Both the position numbers and the translations under genes were made by a program. A model generated the notes under the pieces. That model saw nothing but the letters and a program-made list of their open reading frames with translations. It did not search any database and had not been told where the DNA came from. Shown here one piece after another: positions 8,270-41,945 of a DNA stretch of 41,945 bases. The stretch spans positions 1-41,945 of the forward strand of contig JAFCCM010000010.1 in the NCBI GenBank assembly GCA_017610225.1. The letters run 5' to 3'. Position 1 is the stretch's first letter; the number at the start of each line of letters is the position of its first letter. Origin of the DNA: Candidatus Aenigmatarchaeota archaeon (GTDB taxonomy: Archaea > Aenigmatarchaeota > Aenigmatarchaeia > CG10238-14).

Positions 8270-9202
8270 ATGAATAAAATCAATAGGTTACAATGTCAAA
8301 TATGTAAAAAAGTTTGTAAAACATTAGCTGGTTTATCAAATCATATAAAAATTCATAATATTTCTAATAAAGAGTATTATGATACATATTTAAAAATGGA
8401 CAAAGAAGAATATTGTAATAATCCATTGTGTTATAATTTTGTTAATTATATGGGTTTTCATGGTTATCAAAAACATTGTTCTACTAAATGTTCTACTTTA
8501 AATCCAGATACACAATTACAAATGAAATCTACTATGTTTAAAAAACATGGTGTTGAACATGCTTTACAATCAGAATCTATATTTATAAAAATGAAACAAA
8601 ATAATTTAGAAAAATTTGGAACAGAATTTCCAGTACAATTAAAAGATTCTAAAGAAAAAACTAAACAAACATGTTTAAAAAGATACGGAGTTGACAATCC
8701 AAATAAATCTGAAATTGTTAAAAAGAAATTATTAAAAAGTAGAGAAGGAAAATTTGATTGGAATAATAGAAAAAAATCTAAAGTAACATGTTTAACAAAA
8801 TATGGTGTTATAAATGTGAGTCAAATTGAAGAAGTTAAACAAAAGAAAAATACTAAACAATTTAAAGAGAAACGAAGACAATATATACTTAATGGTGGAG
8901 CTGCTCATTGTAATAAATTTGTACAAAATCCATCTAAACCACAGATTGAATTATTTAAATTAGTACAACAAGTTACTCCATATCCGATAATGAATTATCC
9001 TTGTTTAAATAAAAGTATTGATATAGTTATTCCATCTTTGAGTTTAGCTATTAAATATGATGGTTCATATTGGCATCAAGATAAAGAAGCAGATAATAAA
9101 CGTCAAAAATTACTTGAAGATGAAGGGTGGAAATTTATTAGATATGTTGATAAAATTCCTTCTATTAAAGAATTAAAAAATGATATTATGGAGATGTTAT
9201 AA
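8270..9202 (+). CDS. Homing endonuclease, Vsr-like C-terminus
   Basis: A 310-residue free-standing endonuclease. The N-terminus is a C2H2 zinc finger (C9, C12, H25, H29), followed by a second Cys cluster and several repeats of the form KxGVxxxxQ/NxSE, a DNA-binding repeat seen in phage endonucleases. The C-terminus is a PD-(D/E)XK/Vsr-type core: DIVIPSLSLAIKYDGSYWHQD near 251-271, then RQKLLEDEGWKFIRYVD. The acidic residue usual two before the D is Lys (IKYDG), so activity is uncertain. The ATG at 8270 lies two bases after the upstream stop; a longer in-frame ATG at 8210 would overlap the neck gene. Confidence 0.8.
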   Translation: MNKINRLQCQICKKVCKTLAGLSNHIKIHNISNKEYYDTYLKMDKEEYCNNPLCYNFVNYMGFHGYQKHCSTKCSTLNPDTQLQMKSTMFKKHGVEHALQSESIFIKMKQNNLEKFGTEFPVQLKDSKEKTKQTCLKRYGVDNPNKSEIVKKKLLKSREGKFDWNNRKKSKVTCLTKYGVINVSQIEEVKQKKNTKQFKEKRRQYILNGGAAHCNKFVQNPSKPQIELFKLVQQVTPYPIMNYPCLNKSIDIVIPSLSLAIKYDGSYWHQDKEADNKRQKLLEDEGWKFIRYVDKIPSIKELKNDIMEML

Positions 9203-10165: not shown

Positions 10166-10437
10166 TGTCTATAAAAGTAGTTCATTGTCAACATTATGAT
10201 TATGATGTTTATATTGGTAATGGAACAATTTGGGGAAATCCATTTGTTATAGGGCGAGATGGAACTAGAAAAGAAGTTATTGATAAATATAGAGTATATG
10301 CTTTAGGTAGTAAAACAATTATTGATTCATTACCATTCTTAAAAGATAAGGTATTAGGTTGTTGGTGTAAACCAAAAGCATGTCATGGAGATGTATTAAT
10401 AGAACTAGTTGAAAATAAAATAATACTTACTATATAA
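10165..10437 (+). CDS. DUF4326 family protein
   Basis: A 90-residue protein that shows the DUF4326 pattern: N-terminal HCQHYDYDVYIGNG, WGNPF (23-27), DGTR then a helix, and near the end LGCWCKP and CHGD (66-76). The family is common in phages and bacteria; its biochemical role is unknown to me. The conserved Cys/His residues suggest metal binding or catalysis. It is translationally coupled to the Gly-rich gene and precedes the resolvase. Confidence 0.8.
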   Translation: MSIKVVHCQHYDYDVYIGNGTIWGNPFVIGRDGTRKEVIDKYRVYALGSKTIIDSLPFLKDKVLGCWCKPKACHGDVLIELVENKIILTI

Positions 10438-10445
10438 GGAATAAT

Positions 10446-10982
10446 ATGGGTAAATGGAAATATGAACCACCACAAAAAAGTGAAGAATGGAAAAAATTGG
10501 AAAAATTCTTTATAGGTATTGATCCGAGTTTGAAAGGCAATGCTATAGTTATTACCAATGATTCTGGTGAGATAATCAATGAACATTTAATTAGTACTAA
10601 TAAAGAATGTTACATAAACCCTGAACAAAGAATTTTAGATATATTTGAACAAATGAATTATATATTTAATACAGTAAGACTTGATAGAGTATATATTGAA
10701 GGTTTAGCTTATAGTTCTAATAGTACTACTTTATTTGAACGTTGTGGTCTTATGTATTTAATTGTAACAAAACTATTAAAAGAAGATATAAGATATTCAA
10801 TAATTCCACCAACAATGTTAAAAAAATGGCACACAACAGATGGTCATGCAGATAAAAAATTAATGATGCGAATTGCAAAATGTAAGTATAGAATTGATTT
10901 TCAAGATGATAATATATGTGATGCATACTGCTTAGCAATGATGGCATTAGAAGATTATCAAAATAATGTTAAGAGGGATTAA
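10446..10982 (+). CDS. RuvC-like Holliday-junction resolvase
   Basis: A 178-residue RNase H-fold nuclease that would cut branched DNA during recombination and before packaging. Motifs: GIDPSLKG with catalytic D26, VYIEG with E85, and the C-terminal DDNICDAYCLA with acidic residues at 154, 155 and 159. This order (D...E...DD..D) is that of RuvC/A22-type resolvases. It takes the role of T4 gp49, which is an unrelated fold. Start ATG 10446 has AAGGAATA upstream. Confidence 0.8.
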   Translation: MGKWKYEPPQKSEEWKKLEKFFIGIDPSLKGNAIVITNDSGEIINEHLISTNKECYINPEQRILDIFEQMNYIFNTVRLDRVYIEGLAYSSNSTTLFERCGLMYLIVTKLLKEDIRYSIIPPTMLKKWHTTDGHADKKLMMRIAKCKYRIDFQDDNICDAYCLAMMALEDYQNNVKRD

Positions 10983-10984
10983 TT

Positions 10985-11425
10985 ATGGACAAATTTAAAC
11001 TAAATAAATATTTACAAGAAATACAAAATCTACACATATTAGAAATAATTCCTCAAAAAGGAGCAGGGGTTTTAAAATTAGGAATGACTCTTTCTCAATT
11101 TAGAAAAAAAATTCCAAATTGAGAAAGAATATCAAAAAAGAAAATATAATTATGAAGAATACCATGTGCATATACATTTTGAAAGTAATAAATGTAATTT
11201 TATTGAATTTTATAACGGATTAATTTCTTATAAAAAATTTCATTTTTTTTAAAATAATCTTGGAAAAATTGTAAATATTTTTTGTTAAAAATTGATCCAA
11301 AATCAGAAATAATAGAACAAAACACTTCTATTATTTCTAACAAATTAGGAATCTCATTGTGGACTTCATCAGGTATTAAATTAAATTCTGCAGGTTTGTT
11401 TAAAGCAGGTTATTATAAAAGGTAA
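10985..11425 (+). pseudogene. Broken gene of unknown family
   Basis: Three frames together give one protein. From ATG 10985 comes MDKFKLNKYLQE, then GAGVLKLGMTLSQFRKKIPN, then TGA. A shift by one base gives EKEYQKRKYNYEEYHVHIHF and FIEFYNGLISYKKFHFF, then TAA. The same frame continues with NLGKIVNIF and a shift at a T-run near 11280 gives LLKIDPKSEIIEQN, GISLWTSSGIKLNSAG and YYKR-stop at 11425. The 'GxGxxKLGMT' start is seen in a family of small bacterial proteins of unknown function. Lesions are near 11121, 11250 and 11280, two of them at T-runs. Decay or sequence error. Confidence 0.6.
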
Positions 11426-11432
11426 ATAAATT

Positions 11433-11942
11433 ATGATTTCAAAATATTTAAAATGGCTTCAAGAAAATACTAATTTCTGGAAAGGTGGCCAAAGAGGTGG
11501 TTTAGATAGAGTTCCATCTCCAGTAGCAGCTTTTGAATTAATATATGGTAAGAAAGCACCTTCTGGTATGAGAGGCATGTATCCTGGTAAATCAGAACAT
11601 AAAACTTGGAATGGTATATCTATTGATGCTCATATAGAAGATAAATGGTTAAATGATCTTAATAATATTAAACAAATTGAAATGCGAGCATCTTGTGAAG
11701 GACATGATAAACAATGGGTTACTTTTATAGTATTTAGAGTAATGCCAAATAAAGATAATGATATTAAGTATTTAGATAAAATTAAAAAATCTTTAAATCA
11801 AGGTGTTACAAAATGTGATTATAAGATAGGACAACAAGGAAGACCTCGATTTATTGTTACTACTAAATTATGGTATGGGCAACCTGGTTGGGGAAAATGG
11901 TGGACTACATTAGCAACCAGAGTTAAAAAAGCAACGAGGTAA
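11433..11942 (+). CDS. Hypothetical protein
   Basis: A 169-residue basic protein with many Trp and Gly residues (FWKGGQRGGLD, WYGQPGWGKWW). The N-terminus MISKYLKWLQEN resembles those of other small genes in the window (SKYL/NYL pattern). No family recognised. It is three bases upstream of the phosphoesterase gene, so the two are probably expressed together. Confidence 0.6.
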   Translation: MISKYLKWLQENTNFWKGGQRGGLDRVPSPVAAFELIYGKKAPSGMRGMYPGKSEHKTWNGISIDAHIEDKWLNDLNNIKQIEMRASCEGHDKQWVTFIVFRVMPNKDNDIKYLDKIKKSLNQGVTKCDYKIGQQGRPRFIVTTKLWYGQPGWGKWWTTLATRVKKATR

Positions 11943-23295: not shown

Positions 23296-24162
23296 ATGAA
23301 ATGTGAATATGGTTGTGGGCAAGAGGCTACTTACCAATTTAAGAATGGTAAATGGTGTTGTAGTAAACATTATAGTTCTTGTGAAGGAATGAAACAGATA
23401 AATTCTATTAAAAATAAAAATAAAATAAGATCAAAAAAAACAAGAAGAAACATATCTAAATCACATAAAGGGTTAAATACATGGAGCAAATATACAATAT
23501 TTTCAGAAAAATCAAAAGAAAAAATGAGTAAGAATAGATTAGGAATTAAACTATCAGAAAAAACAAAAAGAAAAATGTCTAAATCTAAAACTGGTATAGA
23601 AATATTTAAAACAAGATTGTCAATCTCTAAAATTAAAAAAAAATATTCTACATTTTTTAAAATAGAAGAAATGAGATATAACCCCGGAAAAGAATCTGAA
23701 AAAGAAATACAAGTGCATTGTAAAAACCATAATTGTAAAAATAGTAAAGAACAAGGCGGTTGGTTTACTCCAACAGGTAATCAATTTGATGGTCGTAGGA
23801 GAGCTTTAGAAGATATTAAAGGAAATGATGGTTCATATTTTTATTGTTCAGAAGAATGTAAACAGGAATGTCCATTATTTAATATAATTAATGATCCAAA
23901 TAAAATAAAAATAAAAATAAAATATTATACATATTCTGAATATCAAACTTTCAGACAACACGTTCTAAAACGAGAAGATTATCTTTGTGAATATTGTGAG
24001 GAACAAGCTATTCATGTTCATCATTCAAGACCACAAAAACTCGAACCAGGTTTTGTTTCAGATCCTGACTTTGGAGTAGCTTGTTGTGAAAAATGTCATT
24101 ACAAATATGGGCATAAAGATGAATGTTTCACTGAAAAATTAGCTATAAAGGAGTGCATATAA
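23296..24162 (+). CDS. HNH homing endonuclease, intact
   Basis: A 288-residue free-standing endonuclease. In order: N-terminal Cys module (CEYGCGQEATYQFKNGKWCC), basic NUMOD3-like repeats (SEKSKEKMSKNRLG, SEKTKRKMSKSKTG), a second zinc part (EEMRYNPGKE, VHCKNHNCKNSKEQGGW, FYCSEECKQEC), and a C-terminal HNH domain (CEYC near 231-234, IHVHHSRPQ, GVACCEKCHYKYGH). It should cut a relative's DNA near the insertion site and spread by recombination. The AAGGAG inside its last codons is the ribosome-binding site of the baseplate gene. It is the intact reference for the broken copies at 12597 and 17208. Confidence 0.93.
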   Translation: MKCEYGCGQEATYQFKNGKWCCSKHYSSCEGMKQINSIKNKNKIRSKKTRRNISKSHKGLNTWSKYTIFSEKSKEKMSKNRLGIKLSEKTKRKMSKSKTGIEIFKTRLSISKIKKKYSTFFKIEEMRYNPGKESEKEIQVHCKNHNCKNSKEQGGWFTPTGNQFDGRRRALEDIKGNDGSYFYCSEECKQECPLFNIINDPNKIKIKIKYYTYSEYQTFRQHVLKREDYLCEYCEEQAIHVHHSRPQKLEPGFVSDPDFGVACCEKCHYKYGHKDECFTEKLAIKECI

Positions 24163-26164: not shown

Positions 26165-26680
26165 ATGAAAATACCATTAAAACCAAGTTTAATGAAAATA
26201 AGAAGAGGTAAACCTTTATGGATTATTATACATCATACCTCTGAATTATATGTGAATCCAGAAGCTAAAATTGATAATCCAAAATTTCAATTAAAAGGAT
26301 TATCAAAAGGTGTATTAGAATTAAAACAAGCAGATATAAATTATCATTATGTAATAGATAAAATAGAAGAAGATTATCAACCTATTGTTTGTAGACCCTT
26401 TGTTTTTTTATGTAATTGGCCAGATATTGCTCCAAGTATAAATAATAGAGCACTCCATGTTGCACTTTTGGGCGATTATAATTTTAAAGTGCCAGAAAAA
26501 AGAATGTATGAAATATTAGCTTTTAGGATATTAAATCCAATGTTAAAAATGTTTAAGTTATCTCCAAATAGAATTAAACTCCATAGAGATGTATCCTCTA
26601 ATAAAGATCTAACATGTCCAGGCGATTTTATAGATGAAGCAATGCTTGAAGCAACAATTAGAAGATTTATTATTAAATAA
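26165..26680 (+). CDS. N-acetylmuramoyl-L-alanine amidase
   Basis: A 171-residue amidase_2/PGRP-type enzyme cleaving the peptide from MurNAc in peptidoglycan. Zinc ligands: H23 in WIIIHHTSE, H140 in LHRDV and C151 in LTCPGD. INYHYVID (about 59-66) and the NNRALHVALLGDY strand (about 98-110) complete the fold. There is no signal peptide and no cell-wall-binding domain. Next to baseplate genes it could be a tail-associated enzyme used at infection, or the lysis endolysin; no holin was seen nearby. Confidence 0.88.
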   Translation: MKIPLKPSLMKIRRGKPLWIIIHHTSELYVNPEAKIDNPKFQLKGLSKGVLELKQADINYHYVIDKIEEDYQPIVCRPFVFLCNWPDIAPSINNRALHVALLGDYNFKVPEKRMYEILAFRILNPMLKMFKLSPNRIKLHRDVSSNKDLTCPGDFIDEAMLEATIRRFIIK

Positions 26681-27477
26681 TGAAAACTCCTGCCAAAAAA
26701 ATAGAAACTAATAAATTATGTGACTATGGATGTGATAAACAAGCTAATTATAAATTTATGAATGGTAAATGTTGTTGCTCTGATGAATGGTTTAGATGTC
26801 CATCAAAGAAAAAAGAAAGAAGTATACAAAGAAAAAAAGATTGGAAAAATTGGAAAAATATTGATCAATGGAAAGAAAATGTTTCTGATGGTGTTAAAAA
26901 TGCTTGGTTAAATAAAGAAAAAAGAGATAAATGGAAAAAAAGCATGCAAGGAAATAATTCATTAAATATTAATATTTTAAGAAATAGATATCCTATTTTA
27001 TTTGAACATGAAGATATAAAAGAAAAAAATAATGAAATATTTGTAAGATGTAAAGAATGTAATATATGGTTTAAACCTAATTATAATAGTTTATATGAAA
27101 GAATTAGACAATTAAAACCAGATGGTAATAATGGTTCATATTTATTTTGTAGTTATAAATGTAAAATCAATTCAAACTTTTTTTGTGAGTCATTAAAAGT
27201 TTCTAAAAAACAATTAAAACAATTCCAAAGGTTTTCAAATATAGTTTGGAGATATACCAGACAAACTCTAAAATCCCATCAAATAAAAAATATTGAACTA
27301 AGAGGTAGAAATAAATATCATTTAGATCATAAATATAGTATTTACGAAGGATTTAAAAATAATATAAATCCTAAAATATTATCCCATCATAAAAACCTTC
27401 AAATGATACCTGAAAAAATAAATATCCAAAAAAGTTCTCAATGTTCTATAACATTACAAGAACTTCTTTCTTTTTGA
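26680..27477 (+). CDS. HNH homing endonuclease, second type
   Basis: A 265-residue endonuclease starting in a TAATG overlap with the amidase stop. The N-terminal Cys module (CDYGCDKQANYKFMNGKCCC) matches the other family members, the middle has a zinc part (VRCKECNIWFKPN, FCSYKCK), but the HNH is different: YHLDHKYSIYEGF, then HHKNLQMIPEKINIQKSS, as in other phage HNH enzymes. Same recognition module, different nuclease domain. Its probable target is the amidase gene. Confidence 0.88.
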   Translation: MKTPAKKIETNKLCDYGCDKQANYKFMNGKCCCSDEWFRCPSKKKERSIQRKKDWKNWKNIDQWKENVSDGVKNAWLNKEKRDKWKKSMQGNNSLNINILRNRYPILFEHEDIKEKNNEIFVRCKECNIWFKPNYNSLYERIRQLKPDGNNGSYLFCSYKCKINSNFFCESLKVSKKQLKQFQRFSNIVWRYTRQTLKSHQIKNIELRGRNKYHLDHKYSIYEGFKNNINPKILSHHKNLQMIPEKINIQKSSQCSITLQELLSF

Positions 27478-29738: not shown

Positions 29739-30491
29739 ATGGAAAAATTAAATAAAGATTATAAAAGTTTAAATGAGTTAATAAGAACTGCATATCAATT
29801 AATATCACCAATGACTTACAATGATGATGTTGATAGATTAACTCCAGAGTTTGTAATGAATGATTCTAAAAAAAGACCTGGATGTTATTTAAAATTAGGG
29901 CAAGGAGCTGATCATACACTATTTCCTATATGTAATAGATATGGTTATAAAGATCCTAAGATGATAAAATTTTCTTTAAAGCTTGCTAAAAAAGTAGCAG
30001 AAAGAAATGTTGGAACAGACACGTTCACAGTAATTTTAAAACTTCAAAAATTATTAAATAAGTATGATAAACCTGTTCCTAATACTGTTAGTCAAGCAGT
30101 TTTAAAAGGACAAGCTACTAAAATATTTAATAAAAAAATGAAGATTAGTGAATTAATGCAACAGTCACGATTTCAAAATGATGCTGCATCAGTAAGCCGT
30201 GGTGCAATAGTAATGGAAATCTGGTATAGAATACAAAAACTAAGAGATAAATATAGAGAATCTAACGATCCTTCGACAAAATCTAAATTAAAAAGTCAAC
30301 TTAAAAAAGAAAAAATGAAACTTAAAATAGAGAAAGTTAAACTTAAAAAAGAGAAAGTTAAAGAGAAAATTAAAAAGAAATTAAAAGAATGGGGTAACTC
30401 AGACTTAAATAAAGATGATAAAGCTAAGAAATTTGTTCAGAATATGTATAATATTAAAGAAAATGCTAAAGCAAAAAAGGCGAATAAATAA
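29739..30491 (+). CDS. Lys-rich helical protein ahead of beta-prime
   Basis: A 250-residue basic protein. The N-terminal 130 residues look globular (SLNELIRTAYQLISPMTYND, GCYLKLGQGADHTLFPICN), followed by a long Lys-rich coiled coil (about 160-235). Its stop overlaps the start of the beta-prime gene (TAATG), so it is translated together with the polymerase. It may be virion or polymerase associated; no family recognised. AAAAGGAG precedes the ATG. Confidence 0.6.
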   Translation: MEKLNKDYKSLNELIRTAYQLISPMTYNDDVDRLTPEFVMNDSKKRPGCYLKLGQGADHTLFPICNRYGYKDPKMIKFSLKLAKKVAERNVGTDTFTVILKLQKLLNKYDKPVPNTVSQAVLKGQATKIFNKKMKISELMQQSRFQNDAASVSRGAIVMEIWYRIQKLRDKYRESNDPSTKSKLKSQLKKEKMKLKIEKVKLKKEKVKEKIKKKLKEWGNSDLNKDDKAKKFVQNMYNIKENAKAKKANK

Positions 30492-32005
30492 TGTTAAGAC
30501 TTTTAAACCCATCAACATTTACGAAAAATTTAAAACCAGTAACCTCAATGATCATTACAACGAAAATTGGTGATTTTCATGAGGATGGTTTGTTTAGTGA
30601 AAGTATATTTGGGGCTTTAGGTTCTAATGATAGAAGAATAGTATTTTCATATGTTGATTTATATGGATATGTTATTCATCCATCAATATATAGAATTTTA
30701 ATGCAGTTGGATAGAAAGATAGAAAAATTTATTTCTACTGAGAAATCTTTTATATTAGATAAAGATGGTCATTTAGAGATTAGTTCTAAAGGTGTAACTG
30801 GTATGAAAGAGTTTATTAAATTATTTCCTAAAATCAAATGGAGAGGTGAAACAGATTTAAGAAATAAATTAATCAAAACTGTTAAAAGAGAAACTAAAAA
30901 TGGTACAATTTTTATTGATAAAATTATTATAATACCACCTGATCTAAGACCAGCTGTTAAAGGTGAAGATGGTAATTGGATGATTGATACTTTAAACGAT
31001 ATTTATATTTCAGTAATGAGAAAAGCTTTTCAATTAAGATCAAGTGGATCAGGTCCATTGTTTGATTTGCTTAATTATGCAATGCATCAATCAGTGATGG
31101 AACATGATAATTTTATTAGATCAAAAATTGGAAAAAAACATGGTATTATTCGAGAGCAAATGTTGGGAAAACGTATTGACTTTTCTGGACGAGCTGTTAT
31201 AACACCAGATCCAAATTTAAAAATTAATCAAGTTGGAGTTCCTTTAAGATTAGCAATAGGTTTGTTTGAACCGTTTATTATGCACCGTTTATTGTATTCC
31301 GGTAGAGTTGATAGAGATGTTTTAGCTAATGGGATTAAAGAATATACTGGGATGGATCTATCAGTAGAATCAGTTAAAAGAGTAATGAAAGGTATTAAAG
31401 AGGGCGATAAAATACCAGATAATTTATATGAACTATTTTTTGAGCAAACTGAAGTTTCTATGATAGATAGAATAGTTGTTGTAAAAAGAGATCCAGTTCT
31501 TCATACTCAAAGTTATTTAGCATATTACCCTGTGTTGCATAGAGGTGATACAATGCTTATGAGTACCACGCAAGTCGGGGTCCACAACGCAGATTTTGAT
31601 GGGGACTGCACAATTCTTTCTATATATTATGAAAAAAATAATAAATTGAATAAAATTCATATTAGTGAATTTCTTGAAAATGAAAATTTTGAATTTGTAT
31701 CAAAACAAGAAAAATCAAATGGAATTGTTGTATCTAAATACAAACCTATAGATGAGTTATTTATTAAATCTATTGATCCAGAAACAGGATTTATAGAAAA
31801 CAAAAAAATAAGTCAATATAGCATTCATGAAAATATTGATATGTATAAAATAAAAGATAAAAAAAATAGGTTTGAAGAATTTTGGTCTTCCTATGATCAT
31901 TCATTAACTATATATGATAAAATGGATGATAAGATTAAAAAAATGAGCCCTAAAGAAGTATTAGCAAATCCAGATAATAAATTTTTAATAAGAGAAATAA
32001 TATGA
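30491..32005 (+). CDS. RNA polymerase beta-prime N-part fused to split-intein N-half
   Basis: A 504-residue protein. Residues 1-372 are the N-terminal part of beta-prime: EDGLFSESIFG (near 31-41), GKRIDFSGRAVITPDP (near 222-237), KRDPVLHTQSY, and the catalytic HNADFDGD ending at D372, which supplies the Mg-binding aspartates. The zinc-finger Cys residues of bacterial beta-prime after DGLF are absent. Residues 373-504 start with Cys, break the motif, and carry intein features (block-B-like SYDHSLTIYD). The expected next residue of the polymerase is found in the gene at 32879. A working subunit needs trans-splicing. The stop overlaps the endonuclease start (ATGA). Confidence 0.9.
   Translation: MLRLLNPSTFTKNLKPVTSMIITTKIGDFHEDGLFSESIFGALGSNDRRIVFSYVDLYGYVIHPSIYRILMQLDRKIEKFISTEKSFILDKDGHLEISSKGVTGMKEFIKLFPKIKWRGETDLRNKLIKTVKRETKNGTIFIDKIIIIPPDLRPAVKGEDGNWMIDTLNDIYISVMRKAFQLRSSGSGPLFDLLNYAMHQSVMEHDNFIRSKIGKKHGIIREQMLGKRIDFSGRAVITPDPNLKINQVGVPLRLAIGLFEPFIMHRLLYSGRVDRDVLANGIKEYTGMDLSVESVKRVMKGIKEGDKIPDNLYELFFEQTEVSMIDRIVVVKRDPVLHTQSYLAYYPVLHRGDTMLMSTTQVGVHNADFDGDCTILSIYYEKNNKLNKIHISEFLENENFEFVSKQEKSNGIVVSKYKPIDELFIKSIDPETGFIENKKISQYSIHENIDMYKIKDKKNRFEEFWSSYDHSLTIYDKMDDKIKKMSPKEVLANPDNKFLIREII
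31607..32002 (+). other. Split-intein N-half (132 residues)
   Basis: It starts with Cys (codon 31607-31609) directly after NADFDGD and runs to the end of the beta-prime N-gene. Within it: CTILSIYYE (block A position), a charged middle (SKYKPIDELFIKSIDPETGF), and SSYDHSLTIYD, which fits block B with its His. No endonuclease domain is in frame. Assignment by junction position, first Cys and partner half at 32879. Confidence 0.85.
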
Positions 32006-32895
32006 ACATTTTAAATGATGGGTTAAAAAAGATACAAGATGGTTTAGATAGAGGAAGTAATTTTAGTAAGGTTGTAGGTAGTATAACAAGAAATAAAAAA
32101 TTTAAAAGAGAATTAGAAATAAAAACTAATTTTCTAAACAAATATATTTCAATAATAAGACCGATTGATAGAGTGTGGTGTATTTTAAACAACATTAATG
32201 TTATACAAGATGTTCCTGTATGTGAATATTGTAAAAAAGAAAATGTTAAGTTCAAAAGAGATTCATATGGGTTTTCAAATACATGTTCATTTAAATGTGG
32301 AAACATATTAGGTTTATTAAATACAAAAACCCCAGAAGCTATAAAAAAAGCAGAGGAAACTAAAAAAATAATACTTTTAGAAAAATATGGGGTTAATCAT
32401 GTTTCTAAAATTCCGGGTATAAATAAAAAGAAAAAAAGAACAGCGTTAAAAAATTTTGGAAGTTTAAAGGCCGCTTATTATGACACTGCTTCTAAAACAA
32501 TAAAGAAAAAATATAAAGTTGATAATATTTCTTCCACGCCAGAGAATAAGAAAAAGAAACGTATTAATATGATAAAAAATATAGAAAAAAGAAAATTAAA
32601 TGGTCATCAATTAGTACCCAATTACAATCCGGATGGTTGTAGAATAATTAACAAATACGGACTAGAAAACAACTATAATTTTCAACATGCAGAAAATGGT
32701 GGAGAATTTTATATAAAAGAACTTGGGTACTGGGTTGATGGTTATGATAAAGAAAAGAATATAATTATAGAAATAGATGAACCCTATCATTTTAGTAACG
32801 GTAATTTAAAAGAAAAAGATATAAAAAGACAAAATGAAATAGTTGACTTATTAAATTGTAAGTTCATAAGGATTAAATATGAAAAATCTTCTTAA
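32002..32895 (+). CDS. Vsr/EDxHD-like homing endonuclease nested between intein halves
   Basis: A 297-residue free-standing endonuclease with its own start (ATGA overlap with the upstream stop). The N-terminus is helical with a zinc knuckle set (CEYCKKENVKF, TCSFKC) and repeats like KYGVNHVSK. The C-terminus is a Vsr-type core: YIKELGYWVDGYDKEKN, IIIEIDEPYHF (E257, D259, H263), KDIKRQNEI, FIRIK. It is almost identical to the end of the 37340 protein. It lies exactly where a homing endonuclease domain sits in a full intein, but as a separate gene, as in reported fractured genes. Its last codons include ATAAGG, the ribosome-binding site of the next gene. Confidence 0.9.
   Translation: MNILNDGLKKIQDGLDRGSNFSKVVGSITRNKKFKRELEIKTNFLNKYISIIRPIDRVWCILNNINVIQDVPVCEYCKKENVKFKRDSYGFSNTCSFKCGNILGLLNTKTPEAIKKAEETKKIILLEKYGVNHVSKIPGINKKKKRTALKNFGSLKAAYYDTASKTIKKKYKVDNISSTPENKKKKRINMIKNIEKRKLNGHQLVPNYNPDGCRIINKYGLENNYNFQHAENGGEFYIKELGYWVDGYDKEKNIIIEIDEPYHFSNGNLKEKDIKRQNEIVDLLNCKFIRIKYEKSS
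32866..32871 (+). promoter_or_regulatory. Ribosome-binding site inside endonuclease gene
   Basis: ATAAGG, made from the codons of the conserved FIRIK strand, lies seven bases before ATG 32879, the start of the intein C-half/beta-prime gene. The same arrangement occurs at 38084 before rpoB. Confidence 0.55.
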
Positions 32896-33025
32896 AAGTA
32901 ATATAGAATTAATACCAATTTCTGATCTTGAAATTGAATTTGATCCTAATGAAACAATAGGATATGATTTAACTGTTGATGATTATTTTACATTCTGTAG
33001 CTATGATGGGGTATTTGTCCAAGAC
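32879..33025 (+). other. Split-intein C-half (49 residues)
   Basis: Residues 1-49: LIPISDLEIE, then the block F/G pattern IGYDLTVDDYFTFCSYDGVFVQD, followed by Thr as the first C-extein residue. YDLTVDD...F...DGVFV is a typical intein end, but the last residues are Q-D where H-N is usual. Both ends of the break restore NADFDGD-TMAIYHPL. Confidence 0.85.
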
Positions 33026-34249
33026 ACGATGGCTATATATCACCCTTTAACAAATGAAGCTCAACAAGAAGCTAAAACAAGAATGATGAAATTAACATCT
33101 GGAACATCATCATCTGAATTTATTTTTGGATTATCAAAAGAAATATGGGCCGGTTTATACATAATTTCAAAAGATAAAAAACCAACAGGATCTTCATTAG
33201 CTATATCTAATGAAGATATAAAAAATGCAACCGAACCATATATTGCTGTTAAATATAGAGGTCATAGAACAACAATGGGTAAAGCTATTATTAATAGTTG
33301 TTTTCCTCAAGATATGGGTTTTATGGAAGCACAAGCAACAAAGAAAACAATTAATGATAGAATTGAAGCAACTTATAATAAATACGGTAATGAAGTTATA
33401 AAAACTGTTGTAGATAAATTAAAAGATGTTGGATTTAAATGGGCTACAATTATGGCACCTTCAATGAATTTAGATTCTTTTATTTTACCAGTATCTGTTA
33501 TAAAAATAAAAGAAAAATTGAAAACAGCTACACCAGAAGAGGCTCAGACATTATTAGAAGAAGCTCAAGAGATACTTCAAGAAACTTTGGATGATTCTGG
33601 TTTTGGTGATTTAGCTAACTCAGGATCAACAAAAGGTTGGGGGCAGCCAATGCAGATATTGGTTGCAAAGGGTGTTATAGCTGATCCTGATGGTAATGTT
33701 TTGGATCCTATATCAGGGTCATTTGCAGATGGATTGTCCAATAGAGAATTCTTTGACGCGTCTCAAGGGTCAAGAAAAGGTATTATTGATAGGGTTATCA
33801 ATACGGCTGACACAGGTTATATGGCACGCAAATTAGCTTATCTTTTAAATACTGTTGAATTAGATAGACAGGTTAAAGATTGTAAAACAACTAGAACTTT
33901 AGATTTAAAACTTAATGATATTTTAATAAAAAGATTTAAAGGTCGATACGTTATTAAAAAAGGTAAATTGATGTTGTTTGATGATGCAAAATTTAAAGTA
34001 GGAGATATCGCTAGTTTTAGAACTCCAATTTTTTGTGAGTCTCCAAAAATTTGTCATACTTGTTACGGTAAATTATTAGAAAGACATCAAACTCCATATG
34101 TTGGAATTCTTGCTGCACAGATAATTGGAGAGCGAGGGACTCAACTCATAATGAAAACTTTTCACACGGGTGGTGCTGTATCGTTGATAAAGCGTGATAT
34201 GCTTGGGGATATCATCAATAATGATCCAATGTCAGGGTTAGAAAAATAA
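32879..34249 (+). CDS. Split-intein C-half fused to RNA polymerase beta-prime middle part
   Basis: A 456-residue protein. Residues 1-49 are the intein C-half. From Thr50 the polymerase resumes: TMAIYHPLTNEAQQEA (completing the catalytic motif), GLYIISKD, FADGLSNREFFDASQGSRKG, ADTGYMARKLAYL (bridge helix region), SPKICHTCYGK, and GERGTQLIMKTFHTGGAVS (417-435, trigger loop, with Arg for the usual Pro). It stops about 21 residues after that, so the remaining C-terminal part is the separate gene at 35442. It overlaps the endonuclease gene by 17 bases. Confidence 0.9.
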   Translation: MKNLLKSNIELIPISDLEIEFDPNETIGYDLTVDDYFTFCSYDGVFVQDTMAIYHPLTNEAQQEAKTRMMKLTSGTSSSEFIFGLSKEIWAGLYIISKDKKPTGSSLAISNEDIKNATEPYIAVKYRGHRTTMGKAIINSCFPQDMGFMEAQATKKTINDRIEATYNKYGNEVIKTVVDKLKDVGFKWATIMAPSMNLDSFILPVSVIKIKEKLKTATPEEAQTLLEEAQEILQETLDDSGFGDLANSGSTKGWGQPMQILVAKGVIADPDGNVLDPISGSFADGLSNREFFDASQGSRKGIIDRVINTADTGYMARKLAYLLNTVELDRQVKDCKTTRTLDLKLNDILIKRFKGRYVIKKGKLMLFDDAKFKVGDIASFRTPIFCESPKICHTCYGKLLERHQTPYVGILAAQIIGERGTQLIMKTFHTGGAVSLIKRDMLGDIINNDPMSGLEK

Positions 34250-34263
34250 CAAGAGGTAATATT

Positions 34264-34839
34264 ATGATTGATAATTATTTAGATTTGTTAATAGAAGCAA
34301 ATGATCAAAGTAAAAAAAGAATTCCATGGAGAAGTGGAAAAATTCCTTTATTATATGGATCTACTGCTATTGAAGGTCTTTCTCAAAAATGTTTAATTTT
34401 AAATGATTTAAAATTTATTATGAAACTTAATCCATCTTTGATGCTTATAATTCCAAAAATCGAAGCTTTAAATAAAATTGGTAGTGGTACTAATGGTTGG
34501 TTAGTAACTGCTAGAAAAGCACAACAACTAGAATTTAAAAAACTTGAGCAAGGTAGTTGTGATGCAAAAACATATTTTTTCGGTAGAGGAAAAGAAGGAA
34601 GAACGTTGGATTGGGTTCAACGTATTGGAGAAAGAGGATTTTCATTAGAAAATATTAGTGGGATAAGCATTTTTCCAAAAAATTCTAAGATTGATTTTAC
34701 AGTAGATAAAAGAGATTATAGTAAATCATCATTTTTTACTGGATGGCAAATTAAATCTAGAAGATCTAAATCAAATCAAGACTCTGAAAAATCTGATAGT
34801 AAGTTATTAGTTCCAATGAGAATTAAAAGAGTTAAATAA
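34264..34839 (+). CDS. Hypothetical protein with prohead-protease-like N-terminal site
   Basis: A 191-residue basic protein, no domain recognised. The N-terminus MIDNYLDLLIEAND contains L-I-E before A, matching the T4 gp21 cleavage consensus and the style of T4 capsid-targeting peptides. The middle has GRGKEGRTLDWVQRIGERGF and the end is Lys/Arg-rich. It lies between parts of beta-prime. A head-packaged internal protein is one hypothesis. Confidence 0.55.
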   Translation: MIDNYLDLLIEANDQSKKRIPWRSGKIPLLYGSTAIEGLSQKCLILNDLKFIMKLNPSLMLIIPKIEALNKIGSGTNGWLVTARKAQQLEFKKLEQGSCDAKTYFFGRGKEGRTLDWVQRIGERGFSLENISGISIFPKNSKIDFTVDKRDYSKSSFFTGWQIKSRRSKSNQDSEKSDSKLLVPMRIKRVK

Positions 34840-34855
34840 TATTTAGGAGGTTATA

Positions 34856-35128
34856 ATGAATGAACAAGTAGTTTCAATATATATTCGAGATATGTTTGGA
34901 GATAAATCACCAAACACTAGAAAATTAAAAAAAGAATCTAAAAGAATTTATGATGCTTTGTATGAATATACAAGTTATCTACCAAAATCTTCTTCAATAA
35001 CTGAAAGATCATATCATATGATTAATGGTTTGAATGAAAGACCAAAATGTGCCTGTGGAAAAATATTAAAATTTAAAAATTATAAAAACGGGTATGGAAC
35101 TAAATGTTCTAAAACTTGTAAAGGTTAA
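34856..35128 (+). CDS. Truncated homing-endonuclease N-domain
   Basis: A 90-residue protein resembling the N-terminal DNA-binding part of phage homing endonucleases: SSSITERSYHMINGL, then a zinc-knuckle pattern CACGKILKF...YGTKCSKTC. There is no nuclease domain, and the next gene starts 3 bases after the stop. The strong TAGGAGGT ribosome-binding site suggests it is expressed. Either a remnant of an endonuclease between polymerase genes or a small DNA-binding protein. Confidence 0.5.
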   Translation: MNEQVVSIYIRDMFGDKSPNTRKLKKESKRIYDALYEYTSYLPKSSSITERSYHMINGLNERPKCACGKILKFKNYKNGYGTKCSKTCKG

Positions 35129-36166: not shown

Positions 36167-36997
36167 ATGAAAGAATATAATGGTGATAAATTATGTGACT
36201 ATGGATGTGGAAATAAGGCAAAATATTTTTTTGATAGTGTTAAAAAATATTGTTGTTCATCCCATTTTTCACAATGTCCTATGAGAAGAAAACAATCTAA
36301 AAAATATATGACCGGGTTAAGACTAGGTGTTAAAAATCCTAGATTTGGAATAAAAATGAATACTATTTTGAAGAAAAAAATTGCTATTCCACAAAGATAT
36401 TCTATTGAACAAATTAAAAAGAAATATCCAACATTTGCTATAATTGAAGAAATGAGATATAAACCTGGTAAAGAAAATGAAAAAATAATTCAAGTTCATT
36501 GTAAAAATCACAACTGTCCTAATTCAAAAGAACAAGGTGGTTGGTTTACACCAAAAAAACAAAATATAGTAGATCGTTATCGTTGTGTAGAAAATGATGG
36601 AACTGGAGGTAGTTATTTTTATTGTTCAGAAAAATGTAAACAAGAATGTCCTATGTATGGGAAACAAATAAGTACTTTAATTAAGGAAGATCAAATTAGA
36701 TCTGGATTAATAGATGATCCATGGTATACCTCAATAGAATATCAAACCTGGAGACATAAAGTATTTGAGTTAGATAATTCAATATGTCAGTTTTGTGGAA
36801 ACCCAGCTACTATAGCACATCATATATTACCACAAAAAACTCATCCAGAATTGTCATTGGATCCCGAAAATGGTATTGCTTGTTGTCAAGAATGTCACTT
36901 TAAATACGGACATCGAGAAAAAGAATGTAATACCAGACATTTAAGTAATTTAGTTTGTGAACGTATTTATAAAATTAAACAAGTTGGAGTTGAATAA
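36167..36997 (+). CDS. HNH homing endonuclease, intact
   Basis: A 276-residue member of the same family as 23296: Cys module (CDYGCGNKAKYFFDSVKKYCC), zinc part (EEMRYKPGKE, VHCKNHNCPNSKEQGGW, FYCSEKCKQEC) and HNH (CQFCGNPATIAHHILPQ, GIACCQECHFKYGH). The NUMOD3 repeats are reduced. It sits directly after the beta-prime C-gene, its likely target. Its 3' end holds the GGAG for the nuclease gene that starts in a TAATG overlap. Confidence 0.92.
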   Translation: MKEYNGDKLCDYGCGNKAKYFFDSVKKYCCSSHFSQCPMRRKQSKKYMTGLRLGVKNPRFGIKMNTILKKKIAIPQRYSIEQIKKKYPTFAIIEEMRYKPGKENEKIIQVHCKNHNCPNSKEQGGWFTPKKQNIVDRYRCVENDGTGGSYFYCSEKCKQECPMYGKQISTLIKEDQIRSGLIDDPWYTSIEYQTWRHKVFELDNSICQFCGNPATIAHHILPQKTHPELSLDPENGIACCQECHFKYGHREKECNTRHLSNLVCERIYKIKQVGVE

Positions 36998-37347
36998 TGT
37001 ATATTTATAAAGCAGATGTAACATATGTGGTTGATGGTGATACGTTTGATGCTACAGTAGATTTAGGGTTTTCAATAAAGAAAAAACAAAGATTTAGATT
37101 AAAAGATGTTGATACACCAGAAACTTGGAGACCTAAAACTGAATCGGAAAGACGTCATGGTCAATTGGCCAAAGACTTTGTGATAGAAAAATTATTAAAT
37201 AAAGAGGTCACATTAACCTCAGTAAAAGCTGCTGTGTATAGTAGATATGAGGCATATGTAACACTACCTGATGGTTCCGATTTAGGTACTTTAATAACAG
37301 AAGCTGGACTTTCAAAATATGATTCATACGAGGATATAGATGAGTAA
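36997..37347 (+). CDS. Staphylococcal-nuclease-like (thermonuclease) protein
   Basis: A 116-residue SNase-fold protein: VVDGDTFDATVDLGF (10-24), RFRLKDVDTPETWRP (32-46) and a C-terminal YSRYEAYVTLPDG near 82-94, giving the DGDT, R-x-VDTPE and R-containing signatures of the family. It should cut nucleic acids with calcium. No signal peptide, so it acts in the cell. It lies between two homing-endonuclease genes, both candidates for using it as a target. Confidence 0.85.
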   Translation: MYIYKADVTYVVDGDTFDATVDLGFSIKKKQRFRLKDVDTPETWRPKTESERRHGQLAKDFVIEKLLNKEVTLTSVKAAVYSRYEAYVTLPDGSDLGTLITEAGLSKYDSYEDIDE

Positions 37348-38101
37348 TATTTGTTATTTTGGATGTGGACAAAAAGCTATATATCAATTTCAGAATGGGA
37401 AGTGGTGTTGTAGTTCTCATTTTAATAAATGTTCTGCATATAAAGAAAATCTTAAAAGAAAAAATATAGGAAAGAAATTATCAAATGAACATAAATTAAA
37501 AATGTCTAAATCACATTTAGGTAAAAAATTATCTATTGAACATAAAAATAATATTGGTAAATCAATGATAGGTAAAAAATGTTCTAATGAAATAAAAATA
37601 AAAATATCATTAAAAAATTCTGGTGAAAATAATGGGATGTATGGTGTTAAAATATCAGAGGAAACAAGAAAGAAATTAAGTAAGGTTCGTAAAGGATCAA
37701 AAAGAAATAAAGAAACAAAACTTAAAATGAGTAAAGCATCGAAAGGTAGAAAACATACTAAAGAAACAAAACAAAAGATGAGATTATCAGCAATTAAAAG
37801 AATTGAAAATAATATTGGTGGACAATTAATTCCAAATTATAATCCAAAAGCTTGTAAAATTATAGATAAATATGGAAAAGAAAATAATTATAATTTTCAA
37901 CATGCAGAAAATGGTGGTGAGTTTTATATAAAAGAACTTGGTTATTGGGTTGATGGATATGATAAAGAAAAAAATATTGTTTTAGAAATAGATGAACCAG
38001 CTCATTATGATACTAATGATAATTTAAAAAATCATGATATTTTAAGACAATTACAAATAGAACAATATTTAAATTGTGATTTTATAAGGATAAAAATATG
38101 A
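37340..38101 (+). CDS. Homing endonuclease: Cys module plus Vsr-like domain
   Basis: A 253-residue chimera. The N-half is the Cys module of the HNH family (CYFGCGQKAIYQFQNGKWCC) with several NUMOD3-like repeats (SNEHKLKMSKSHLG, KETKLKMSKASKG). The C-half (from about 183) is the Vsr/EDxHD-type domain of the intein-associated endonuclease: 30 identical residues from NYNFQHAENGG onward, EIDEPAH (E216, D218, H222) and FIRIK. Its start overlaps the nuclease gene and its stop overlaps the rpoB start (ATGA). Confidence 0.9.
   Translation: MSNICYFGCGQKAIYQFQNGKWCCSSHFNKCSAYKENLKRKNIGKKLSNEHKLKMSKSHLGKKLSIEHKNNIGKSMIGKKCSNEIKIKISLKNSGENNGMYGVKISEETRKKLSKVRKGSKRNKETKLKMSKASKGRKHTKETKQKMRLSAIKRIENNIGGQLIPNYNPKACKIIDKYGKENNYNFQHAENGGEFYIKELGYWVDGYDKEKNIVLEIDEPAHYDTNDNLKNHDILRQLQIEQYLNCDFIRIKI
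38084..38089 (+). promoter_or_regulatory. Ribosome-binding site of rpoB inside endonuclease gene
   Basis: ATAAGG from the FIRIK codons lies eight bases before the rpoB ATG at 38098, as at 32866. Confidence 0.55.
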
Positions 38102-41100
38102 TACAATTCCGAGCAATGAAGGAGTTTACTCATGTAGTTAATGGTATACGTTTTCCGCAATCAAATAAGAAACCTTTCATAATAATTTATTTTAGTGAAA
38201 ACTCATCATTAGTAGATGATTACCCTAAAATGAATATGCTACGAGTAGATGCTAAAAAGGTTATTATTCCTAAAACTAAAATTCCATTTAGTTTTATATC
38301 TCCAGAACTTAAGAAAACATATAAAACTCATGGTTTATTAGCAACTAGTTCTAATCAAGCAATTCCAAAAGGACAAAATTTATTATATGATCTTAGTCCG
38401 TTTTTAAATGTATTAGATGATTCATATAAATTAAAGAACTATAGACAAAGGGGGGGATTTTTATTAAAAAATTTAGTTGATAAAATATTTAGTTCATTTC
38501 CAAATAACTATCAAAAAATTCTTATGTATTCAGTTGATGCTACTAAAGGAATAAATAAATATATTGATAGAAAAATATTTCCGTTTGTTATAGAATTAAA
38601 GAAAAATAATTTATATTATGATCATTTAGTTTTAAATACTATAAATGGGACTAATTCTAGATATAGACTTTTAATTAAAGATAGAGAAGTTAAATTTAAT
38701 AGAGTGAACTTATTTTTAAAGAATATTAAGATTATTGATGCTGAGGAAGAAGTTGATAGTAAAGTAAAAGTCGCCTCAGATATAGTAGTTAAAAAAATAA
38801 AAGCAGATATAGAACCTTCTAATAAATCAAAATTTAAACAAGCTGTTCGAAAGTTTTTAGAAAAGAATCCTAAAACTTTAGAAAAAACTCATAATAATGA
38901 AATAACAGATGATGATGCTAAAGAAATTGCAATAGCATCTGCTTTATATAGATCAACCGGTGATATGGTTAAAGCACGAGTAACAGCAAAAAATATTCCT
39001 AATTCTAAAAAATCTATTGGTTTAAAAGTTATTGATAAAAAATATGTTGATGAATTATTAGAACCTAAAAAAACAGAAATTACATCTGAGGATTTAGTTA
39101 TTCAATTATCAAATGTTGCTAAAGCAGTTAATAATAAATCGCCTGAGCATATTTTTGAAAAAAGAAAAATAGATTTTGAAACTAATTTGAAGAAAGATAT
39201 TGTTAATTCATTTAAAGTATTAGAAACAAAAAATATTCCATTAAAATTTAAAGGCATTAAAGTTATAAAGAAATCAATTAGATCTGGTGAATTAAATCCA
39301 TCTGATATTAGTACTATTCAAGTAACACTTATTGATAAATTTAAAAGAGAACATGAAATATTATTAGATGTCCCAAATGTTGCTGAGGATGGAACATTTA
39401 AGATTAATGGAAAAAAGAAATGTCTTATTAATCAATTAGTATTATGTCCAATAACATTTCCTAAAAAATATGATAGTAAGTTTGAAAGTAGTTATTCAAC
39501 ATTTCATATTTGGAGTAAGAGAACTAAACGTGAAGAGTATCTTGAAGCTTATATTGGATCGTATAAAGTGCCGCTATTAGTCCTATTAGGGTTTAGTTTT
39601 GGGTTTAAAGAGTCGTTAAAATTATATGATATTAGGTATAAGTTAACCGATCAAAAACCTGATAAAGAGGTTAAATGGACTGTTAAAGTTGATGATGACC
39701 AATGGATTTTATTTGAAAATATTAACACAAAACTAAAAGAAGAATTAGTTCAATCATTAGTTCATACAGACATTAGTTCCTATAAAATTAATGGAGAATT
39801 GTTAAATCATGAATATTTTAATAACTTAATTATTAAAATATCAGGTCGTATTAATTCAACTTTTTTAATTCAATCCAACCTTGAAAATATTGTTGACCCT
39901 GTTGCTAAACAAGTATTAATTAATCAACAATTACCAAGTGAATTACATTTAATTATGAAATATATGTCATCTAAATGTGTAGAAGGTTTTACACAAAAAA
40001 GAAATGATATATCAAATCAAAGAATAAGAAACTCAGAAGTTATAGTTCATCTTGCTCAAAAACAAATATTAGCAGCTCATACTGAATATAAGGAACAAGT
40101 ATTATCTGGTAATAAAAAAGCTATTTTTAATGTTTCACAAACTAAAGTGTTAAGTGATTTTATTAATTCAGAAATTGTTGCTGATATGGAATATGCAAAC
40201 CCAATTGAAGAAATGGCTACTAAAACAAGAGTATCACCAGTAGGCAAAGCAGTAGGTGGTATTCCCGATAAACAAGCTATTCAAAATACTGGACGTAATG
40301 TTCATGATTCAATGTTTGGAAATATTGATACACTTGATACACCAGAAGGTGAGAATGTTGGTATTGTACAGCAGTTAACTGTTGATGCTTTTATTACATC
40401 TGCTAGAGGTTTAATCCAAATGAAAGATAAAAAGGAAGGAGAAGATTCAGGTTTATTATCTACAACCTCAGCTCAAATTCCTTTTGTTGAAAATAATGAT
40501 GGTAATAGGGTAATGTTTGGATGTAGTCAAATGAGACAAGCTGTTCCTTTAAGAAATCCAGAACAACCAATGATCCAATCTGGTTATGAATCTATTTTAA
40601 CAAGTGTTTTATCAAGTGACTTTATTAAGAAATCTCCTTGTAATGGTAAAGTAACCAGAATAACTGAAGATGATATTTCTATTAAATGTAGTACTGGTGG
40701 CAATAAAGTTATACCAATTACACCTGTTCATCTAAGATCTGGATCAGGTAAAGATACATTAAGTGTTTTTAAACCTACAGTTAAACCTGGTCAAGTTGTT
40801 AAAGAAAAAGCTATTATTGCAGAAGGTTCTTGTGTTACTGGTGGGGCAATTGCATTAGGAAGAAGTATGTGTGTTGCTTTAATGCCTTATAAAGGTTTTA
40901 ATTTTGAGGATGGAATTGTTATATCTGAGAGAATAGTAAAAGAAGGAGTTCTTAATTCATTACATGGTATTGTAGAAGAAATGGAAATTGCTCCTGATGA
41001 TAGAGTTGTATATATGAATGAATTGGGAAAACAAACTAAAAAAGGAGAACAATTAATTAGAAAGAGTATTGGTTCTATAGAACAATTAATCGGATATGAA

Positions 41101-41945
41101 GAAGAGGAAGATGGTGTTGAAGTTGTTTCTGGTCATATGATTAAAAAATCTCCTGGTGGAAAGATTGTTGATATAGAAGTATTTAATAATCTAAAAGAAG
41201 GAAAATTTCCTGAACTTGATAAATTATCAAAAAGAACTAGAACTAGATATGGATTAAAACCTAAAGAAAAATTTTCTATTAGAGGCGAAGCTATTAAAGG
41301 GATTTTAATTAAATTTAAAATAGAACAAGAAATACCTGTAGGTATTGGAGATAAGTTAACTAATAGACATGGTGCTAAAGGTATTGTTTCTCTTATAGAA
41401 AAAGAAGAAAATATGCCAAGAACAACAACTGGTGATAGAGTTGATATAATTCTAAATCCAATTGGTGTAGTTGGTCGTATGAATATTGGTCAATTATATG
41501 AATTGTATACTGGATTAATATCTAAAGAACTTGGCAGACAAATTATTAAATTAAATAATAAAACAAAAGTAGTTGCCTTATTAAATAAAACTCTACCTTA
41601 TTTAGATATGACTAAAAATAAAGAATTTAGTAAAAATTTAATTAATAAATTTAGAGCATTAACTGATACTAAATTCAAATTATTTATGAAACAAGTTAAA
41701 GATTCTGAATCAATGACTATTTTAATTCCTCCTTTTAAAGCTCCTGCTTATAAAGAAATATTAGCTGCTTTAAAATCATTAGGATTAAAATCTGGTTATA
41801 ATTTAAAACTACCAGAATATAATACAAAAACAAAAAGCAAGGTTCCAGTTGGTTATATGTATATATTAAAACTAGAACATATAGCTGCCGAGAAACTTCA
41901 TGTTAGAAGTACAGGACCAGTAACTAGTAAGACTTTCCAACCGAC
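38098..41945 (+). CDS. RNA polymerase beta subunit, 3' end beyond window
   Basis: An open frame from ATG 38098 through the right edge (1282 codons visible). The C-terminal half is clearly beta: TRVSPVGKAVGG, GNIDTLDTPEGENVG (near 741-755), GFNFEDGIVISER (933-945), GIGDKLTNRHGAKG (1082-1095), MNIGQLYE, and at the edge GYMYILKLEHIAAEKLHVRSTG, close to the bacterial C-terminus. So the protein is near bacterial size (perhaps 1350 residues) and is not split here. The first 350 residues are divergent. With beta-prime it forms the catalytic core of a phage polymerase. No alpha, omega or sigma gene was recognised. Confidence 0.93.
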   Translation, partial: MIQFRAMKEFTHVVNGIRFPQSNKKPFIIIYFSENSSLVDDYPKMNMLRVDAKKVIIPKTKIPFSFISPELKKTYKTHGLLATSSNQAIPKGQNLLYDLSPFLNVLDDSYKLKNYRQRGGFLLKNLVDKIFSSFPNNYQKILMYSVDATKGINKYIDRKIFPFVIELKKNNLYYDHLVLNTINGTNSRYRLLIKDREVKFNRVNLFLKNIKIIDAEEEVDSKVKVASDIVVKKIKADIEPSNKSKFKQAVRKFLEKNPKTLEKTHNNEITDDDAKEIAIASALYRSTGDMVKARVTAKNIPNSKKSIGLKVIDKKYVDELLEPKKTEITSEDLVIQLSNVAKAVNNKSPEHIFEKRKIDFETNLKKDIVNSFKVLETKNIPLKFKGIKVIKKSIRSGELNPSDISTIQVTLIDKFKREHEILLDVPNVAEDGTFKINGKKKCLINQLVLCPITFPKKYDSKFESSYSTFHIWSKRTKREEYLEAYIGSYKVPLLVLLGFSFGFKESLKLYDIRYKLTDQKPDKEVKWTVKVDDDQWILFENINTKLKEELVQSLVHTDISSYKINGELLNHEYFNNLIIKISGRINSTFLIQSNLENIVDPVAKQVLINQQLPSELHLIMKYMSSKCVEGFTQKRNDISNQRIRNSEVIVHLAQKQILAAHTEYKEQVLSGNKKAIFNVSQTKVLSDFINSEIVADMEYANPIEEMATKTRVSPVGKAVGGIPDKQAIQNTGRNVHDSMFGNIDTLDTPEGENVGIVQQLTVDAFITSARGLIQMKDKKEGEDSGLLSTTSAQIPFVENNDGNRVMFGCSQMRQAVPLRNPEQPMIQSGYESILTSVLSSDFIKKSPCNGKVTRITEDDISIKCSTGGNKVIPITPVHLRSGSGKDTLSVFKPTVKPGQVVKEKAIIAEGSCVTGGAIALGRSMCVALMPYKGFNFEDGIVISERIVKEGVLNSLHGIVEEMEIAPDDRVVYMNELGKQTKKGEQLIRKSIGSIEQLIGYEEEEDGVEVVSGHMIKKSPGGKIVDIEVFNNLKEGKFPELDKLSKRTRTRYGLKPKEKFSIRGEAIKGILIKFKIEQEIPVGIGDKLTNRHGAKGIVSLIEKEENMPRTTTGDRVDIILNPIGVVGRMNIGQLYELYTGLISKELGRQIIKLNNKTKVVALLNKTLPYLDMTKNKEFSKNLINKFRALTDTKFKLFMKQVKDSESMTILIPPFKAPAYKEILAALKSLGLKSGYNLKLPEYNTKTKSKVPVGYMYILKLEHIAAEKLHVRSTGPVTSKTFQP

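Follow-up and report, generated by a model that had tools for sequence, protein, structure and literature searches.

The DNA analysed here, a stretch of 41,945 nucleotides (nt) in its entirety (contig JAFCCM010000010.1 of assembly GCA_017610225.1, filed under Candidatus Aenigmatarchaeota archaeon; hereafter the window) and likely derived from a large phage, contains a gene for the β' subunit of a multisubunit RNA polymerase (RNAP) that is interrupted by a predicted split intein, whose halves flank a likely nuclease gene. Three open reading frames (ORFs), all of them open and on the forward strand, make up the locus, namely ORF1 (30491-32005, 504 amino acids (aa)), ORF2 (32002-32895, 297 aa), and ORF3 (32879-34249, 456 aa). 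ORF1 carries at residues 366-372 the sequence NADFDGD, which we take to be the catalytic Mg-binding motif, followed by 132 residues starting with Cys, and ORF3 begins with 49 residues ending in FVQD, after which the polymerase resumes at TMAIYHPL. ORF2 lies in a different frame from ORF1, has a start of its own, and overlaps its neighbors by 4 nt, through an ATGA shared with the ORF1 stop, and by 17 nt, respectively. AGG-type start signals precede ORF1 and ORF3, with a Shine-Dalgarno-like AAGGA (32868..32872, forward strand) situated within ORF2, 6 nt upstream of the ORF3 start, while the signal of ORF2 is weak.

The host gene and the two predicted intein halves

Matches to Pfam, PHROG, and NCBIfam models identify the host gene: the N-extein (30491..31606, forward strand, 372 aa, ending in NADFDGD) matches PF00623 (E 1.5e-21) and phrog_2986 (E 1.5e-40), and the C-extein (33026..34249, forward strand, 407 aa, starting with TMAIYHPL and hence with Thr at +1) matches PF04998 (E 4.2e-21) and the NCBIfam model rpoC_TIGR (E 3.3e-47). 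This bears out the initial annotation, which had described a phage multisubunit RNAP β' gene cut exactly after NADFDGD, and whose coordinates and residue numbers all proved exact. Between the exteins lie the intein N-half (31607..32005, forward strand, 132 aa plus stop), with Cys at position 1 and a block-B-like SYDHSL containing the conserved His, and the intein C-half (32879..33025, forward strand, 49 aa), in which an alignment with homologues delineates a block-F-like YDLTVDD and the end GVFVQD. The layout is thus also the one originally proposed, namely a split intein in a fractured gene, with two host-gene pieces each bearing an intein half and a nuclease gene between them.

When viral contigs were scanned with ORF3, seven loci were recovered, one of them split (L001) and six uninterrupted (L002-L007; L007 was read as empty, and its contig reappears as row L074 of a second scan, A12, described below). 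Here and below, L numbers denote loci and P numbers database proteins, with P0006, P0012, and P0013 corresponding to L022, L037, and L019, respectively. Among the uninterrupted versions, the 85% identical L005 encodes a single 780-aa β' with NADFDGDTMAIYHPL, and the window aligns with it at 83% protein identity and with one gap in the N-extein, and at 86% identity over 407 residues and without a gap in the C-extein. An uninterrupted relative without matching junctions had been set beforehand as an observation that would speak against the split-intein reading; the junctions of L005 match those of the split gene exactly.

We consider it highly probable that the element is a class 1-type split intein placed right after NADFDGD; its halves are predicted to come together and trans-splice the two polymerase pieces into a 779-residue chain reading NADFDGD-TMAIYHPL, with the catalytic loop intact. 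The intein-like halves, their position, the matching empty gene, the conservation across the family, and the predicted fold of a contiguous homologue argue for this reading, and from them we infer that the halves bind and splice. Splicing of the class 1 type would begin with an attack by Cys1, followed by transfer of the N-extein to Thr+1 and cyclisation of the terminal Asp, which stands in for the usual Asn. A working polymerase probably forms only after both proteins are spliced together, and the earlier claim that a working catalytic centre needs trans-splicing is supported as a prediction from sequence. The further suggestion that splicing could gate transcription is not supported, in that no sign of regulation emerged, with the limit that promoters and expression were not analysed.

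Conservation of the halves is consistent with splicing chemistry. The N-half has homologues in five other database proteins (53-86% identity) and the C-half in nine, all joined to β' at the same residue. Position 1 of the intein is C/S/T in 14/14 rows (Cys in the window), a set that leaves out P0006 and also L001, which has the same intein as P0003; the block B His corresponds to N-half residue 98, within an SxDHS present in 12/12 N-half ORF rows. On the C-side, Asp ends the intein in all 23 rows, 21 of them distinct given the above equivalences, and is preceded by Gln except in L055 (Phe) and L054 (Tyr), so that the typical His-Asn end is absent. The cyclising residue at the intein C-terminus is Asn, with Asp, Gln, or Glu also allowed, and inteins that end in Asp can splice by the class 1 pathway, with this Asp cyclising (PMC4031507). 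The first C-extein residue is C/S/T throughout the same 23 rows (19 T, 2 S, 2 C); L001, in which the C-half ends in FVQD and is followed by TN and a stop, was left out of this set.

Empty sites differ in this respect. The A12 scan, run with a C-extein profile, yielded 44 loci, comprising 37 empty sites, two with an intein, and five others (L066, which is the L001 contig with its frameshift, and four loci that fall short of the site); the empty set includes the distant paralogue-type L103-L105 and the near-duplicates L067/L068, L073/L074, and L081/L082. At +1 these 37 sites show Q in 20, T in 9, A in 5, M in 2, and V in 1, i.e., Q, A, M, or V in 28. The contrast with occupied sites is as splicing chemistry would demand. 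It is weakened by the relatedness of the rows, by a possible contribution from the target preference of the nuclease, and by the search itself, since one of the two patterns in each of two scans required T or T/S at +1. The atypical terminal Gln-Asp leaves some room for the idea that the halves only hold the β' pieces together without splicing, the polymerase being a naturally split one, as seen in jumbo phages and cyanobacteria, where β' is split nearby, after the DPBB domain (PMC7598289). We regard this as quite improbable, given the invariable C/S/T on both sides of the intein, the variation of +1 between hosts in the manner a nucleophile would allow, and the prevalence of other residues at empty sites; moreover, an unspliced HINT domain of 132+49 aa would occupy the Mg-binding loop.

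Structure prediction offers a further line of evidence. In L020, a natural contiguous version, both halves are predicted to form one intein domain with the HINT fold, and the predicted fold of the window N-half alone resembles inteins weakly. None of the Pfam and NCBIfam intein models matches the window halves, alone or joined, TIGR01445 (intein_Nterm) reaches E 0.2 on the L001 N-half, and a PDB sequence search with the window halves gave zero matches; a family profile (A8) does match the Pab polC intein in the PDB (E 5.4e-4). In INPHARED the N-half found no match at E<=1 and the C-half only one at E 0.5, so that, at the sensitivity of tblastn, that collection contains no close relative of the intein.

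The same contiguous homologue bears on the alternative that a self-splicing intron removes the interruption at the RNA level. This has precedents in the β' genes of other jumbo phages, which speak for an intron: the β' frames of Machias (L063; annotated as joined exons) and phiR1-37 (L065) break directly after DFDG, and the N-terminal β' genes of virion RNA polymerases (vRNAPs) contain group I and II introns (PMC12350094). An intron is nevertheless scarcely credible here, as both window ORFs run in frame into conserved intein-like halves, and an in-frame contiguous homologue has a predicted intein fold. An Rfam search of window positions 30000-35000 found no group I or II intron at E<=1, a weak argument in that the search at gathering thresholds found none in L063 and L065 either.

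Estimates of the ratio of nonsynonymous to synonymous substitution (dN/dS, NG86) further suggest function. Between the window and L001 the C-half has a ratio of 0.15 and the N-half one of 0.38; further values are 0.58 for the N-half between the window and L022 (the C-half of this pair was unused, its synonymous difference pS being saturated at 0.73), and 0.15-0.17 for the exteins between the window and L005. By these ratios selection on the exteins and the intein C-half is strong. Taken with the conserved residues at both splice junctions, they make the window intein likely active in splicing. A decayed intein in a dead polymerase pseudogene, or an assembly artefact, might be suspected from L001 (positions 1-1700), whose contig starts at FDGD and whose frame is shifted by a deletion right after QDT, possibly reflecting an assembly fork from a mixed intein-plus and intein-minus population or real decay. 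For the window such an explanation is very improbable, with its three ORFs open, start signals ahead of ORF1 and ORF3, selection of the above strength, and the same layout in contigs from several metagenomes and in the 5+9 database proteins.

States of the element at a single codon

The finding gains strength over its first description from the long series of states seen at this one codon. Unless a profile match is given, locus layouts and gene names in this series were read by eye from ORF lists. Versions split with a nuclease gene between the halves include L001 (HNH_3, E 0.0017, below cutoff), L022 (its nuclease typed by likeness to that of L001), L021 (a nuclease of the window type), and L052 (a different DUF7487 gene, nuclease-like by eye). 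Other split versions have an 85-aa ORF without the look of a nuclease (L055), a 54-aa ORF (L019, whose contig begins within the N-half), or a spacer of only 12 nt (L037) between the halves. At the extreme of this range, record G008 (L018/L024) bears the N-half at 10370-11887 on the minus strand and the C-half from 88392 on the plus strand, ~76 kb apart, with no nuclease in the listed ORFs neighboring either half. Contiguous forms are represented by the mini-intein of L020 and by L054, which contains a LAGLIDADG domain. A programmed frameshift or read-through, giving one long intein with an internal nuclease, was considered and rejected, as frames and gaps vary between loci and the halves of G008 are unlinked.

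The inteins of L021, L052, and L055 reside in a gene of the paralogue type, with 38-45% identity to L015 in its N-part, and it seems from these similarities that the intein crossed between two phage polymerase types. By eye, the C-intein ORFs of L038 (3266-3754), L046 (5953-8337), P0017, and P0018 start ~30 residues into the intein and suggest an atypical split near the N-terminus within the same β' site family; L038 has in-frame stops upstream of this ORF, and a separate N-half was not found in the record of L046. Additional interruptions were noted in the same genes. L052 (5983-9345) has a second contiguous intein-like insert in the β' C-part after TFHES, presumably the trigger-loop region, ending in VFVHN-S; an ORF running off the contig end of L038 (2-541) looks by eye like part of another intein; and in L020 and L054 the β' gene is broken once more near window residue 290, where other ORFs separate the pieces and no intein was seen.

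Phylogenetic placement points to repeated turnover. In a tree built from the N-exteins of 19 selected rows (8 occupied and 11 empty, seven of the latter from the A12 scan), the empty L005 pairs with the occupied P0003 (support 100/96) within a five-member group (100/100) completed by the window, P0002, and P0004, each of them occupied; the empty L002 and L004 fall just outside this group, and the occupied P0005 pairs with the empty L094 (95/92). The nesting of an empty L005 among occupied close kin suggests that the element was gained or lost recently, and more than once; on this tree, a gain below L002/L004 followed by loss in L005 would fit equally well as several gains. A recent gain by the window alone, read from a C-extein tree with the window as sister of L005, was dropped, that tree being without occupied close kin.

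Given the breaks of Machias and phiR1-37 after DFDG, the codon is a hotspot where elements of more than one kind insert. In phiR1-37 (g178/g179) the gene next to the break, g179, ends by eye in a Vsr-like stretch.

The intervening likely nuclease and its proposed role in homing

ORF2 is likely a free-standing homing endonuclease, a prediction in line with its matches to phrog_3339 (homing endonuclease, E 3.8e-6) and DUF7487 (E 5.6e-6, just under the Pfam cutoff). Its N-terminal part (residues 8-192; 32023..32577, forward strand), likely concerned with DNA recognition, is 53% identical over 189 columns to the HNH-type nuclease found at the same site in L001. The C-terminal part (residues 179-292; 32536..32877, forward strand), the likely nuclease domain, is close instead to the free-standing NUMOD3 nuclease encoded at 37340..38101 on the forward strand (PF07460, E 3.4e-13), with 69% aa identity over 115 columns and 78% identity at the DNA level. 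This suggests a modular nuclease in which the likely recognition part stays with the site, its catalytic partner having been exchanged, the 37340-38101 gene being a possible donor or recipient of the latter. In INPHARED, matches to the C-terminal part occur in five Lak phage records and in one uncultured phage of 484 kb.

Of the earlier description of ORF2 as a separate Vsr/EDxHD-like nuclease gene, the separateness, frame, and own start held, and the family label was confirmed by no EDxHD-family profile. The arrangement E...VDG...EIDE..H...D..R, which we take to be the EDxHD motif, is kept in 3/3 sequences; the C-terminal domain has no Pfam family above cutoff, and a PDB search with the ORF2 sequence returned no nuclease. 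Nucleases with a distant likeness to EDxHD/Vsr enzymes have been described in four phage group II introns, of which three lie in vRNAP β' genes (PMC12350094).

As the likely homing engine, the ORF2 product would cut intein-free alleles near the NADFDGD codon, and repair of the cut allele would copy the intein halves and the nuclease together. On the simplest view, such an element is tolerated because it splices, and the split form would outlive loss of the nuclease because the phage then needs the intein to make its polymerase. The 40 bases before the junction (31567-31606) have a GC content of 57.5% as against 30% in the N-extein, perhaps a co-converted tract.

Polymerase type, known systems, and neighboring genes

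Comparison with three references, one of them partial, gives the window N-extein 105 bits to the virion-type Machias and 100 to phiR1-37 g178 (annotated as a structural protein) against 83 to the non-virion Madawaska; the paralogue L015 shows the reverse (42 and 40 bits against 88), and the intein-bearing L037 does not separate the types (111 non-virion against 107 and 96). A second β' match, in an open frame of 903-911 aa, occurs in 7/7 records searched. On the bit scores we lean, short of a result, towards a virion RNAP subunit in the window, in which case splicing is likelier to be finished before packaging. Taking the above together, we tentatively propose, at somewhat below even confidence, that the NADFDGD codon is a standing homing site at which split inteins make polymerase genes permanently multi-gene and trans-splicing obligatory, the polymerase of the window being probably a virion one spliced before packaging. 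The series that suggests this runs, with every member extant, from a contiguous homing intein through the mini-intein, split forms with exchangeable nucleases, and split forms lacking one, to halves 76 kb apart.

Fractured-gene split inteins of the gp41, NrdJ, and IMPDH types were reportedly described in environmental phages by Dassa et al. in 2009. Phage MIJ3 likewise has an HNH gene between the pieces of its PolB, with a block G ending in HN-S (PMC6892783). Both share with the window a host gene cut in two, an intein half on each piece, and a free-standing homing endonuclease gene between. The window departs from them in its host, a multisubunit RNAP β' cut at the catalytic motif, in its Gln-Asp C-end as against the HN-S of MIJ3, and in the empty, contiguous, nuclease-less, and dispersed states seen at its site. 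The split PolB1 intein Aes123 of T4-like Aeromonas phages (PDB: 9hth; PMC11923092) is 18% identical, resides in another host gene, and has a C-terminal Asn (N159A in the solved form) rather than Asp. Inteins in the RNAPs of eukaryotes and their viruses (PMC1635734) also occupy highly conserved RNAP sites, but in the second-largest subunit and, in the available text, without being described as split, unlike the split β' intein at NADFDGD. The group I/II introns of jumbo-phage vRNAP β' (PMC12350094) share gene family and neighborhood with the window interruption, which differs in being a protein element rather than one acting on RNA. Jumbo-phage RNAP genes have been proposed to be split via intron mobility followed by loss, with a cyanobacterial origin of the β' split as the alternative (PMC7598289); the known split after the DPBB domain lies near the window's site, though not necessarily at it.

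Among the matches listed, no title or abstract start reports a split intein in a phage RNAP β', and the word intein occurs 0 times in the available text of PMC7481178, PMC12619734, and PMC7598289. The layout itself is already published; its host gene, catalytic-motif site, and range of states were not met in the literature searched. Many stages of the homing cycle and of gene fracture are visible at a single codon of an essential enzyme. The NADFDGD loop is generally regarded as the most conserved loop of the polymerase. Archaeal RpoA'/A'' inteins likewise lie at highly conserved RNAP sites, and matches to NCBIfam PRK14898 (archaeal RpoA'/A'') were obtained, a model that presumably spans such an intein. 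The family is a source of natural trans-splicing pairs in which the Gln-Asp end is unusual and the nucleophiles vary on both sides, and it makes the origin of fragmented phage polymerase genes testable. Here the dispersed halves left by a protein element are predicted to fit together even now. Annotators may also note that a "truncated" RNAP gene can be whole after splicing.

Further polymerase genes lie downstream on the forward strand. The product of 35442..36161 matches phrog_2926 (virion structural protein, E 4.7e-9) and aligns over 225 columns, at 44% identity, with residues 782-1004 of the β' of L006, in which this segment is fused to the rest; to judge by this similarity, it is the C-terminal piece of the split β' of the window. 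The β subunit gene (38098..41943; phrog_3148, RNA polymerase beta subunit, E 2.7e-49) runs off the window. Besides ORF2, the 42 kb contain five nuclease-like free-standing genes, namely 8210-9202, 36167-36997, and the above 37340-38101 by family matches, and 23296-24162 and 26680-27477 by eye, the last without a Pfam match.

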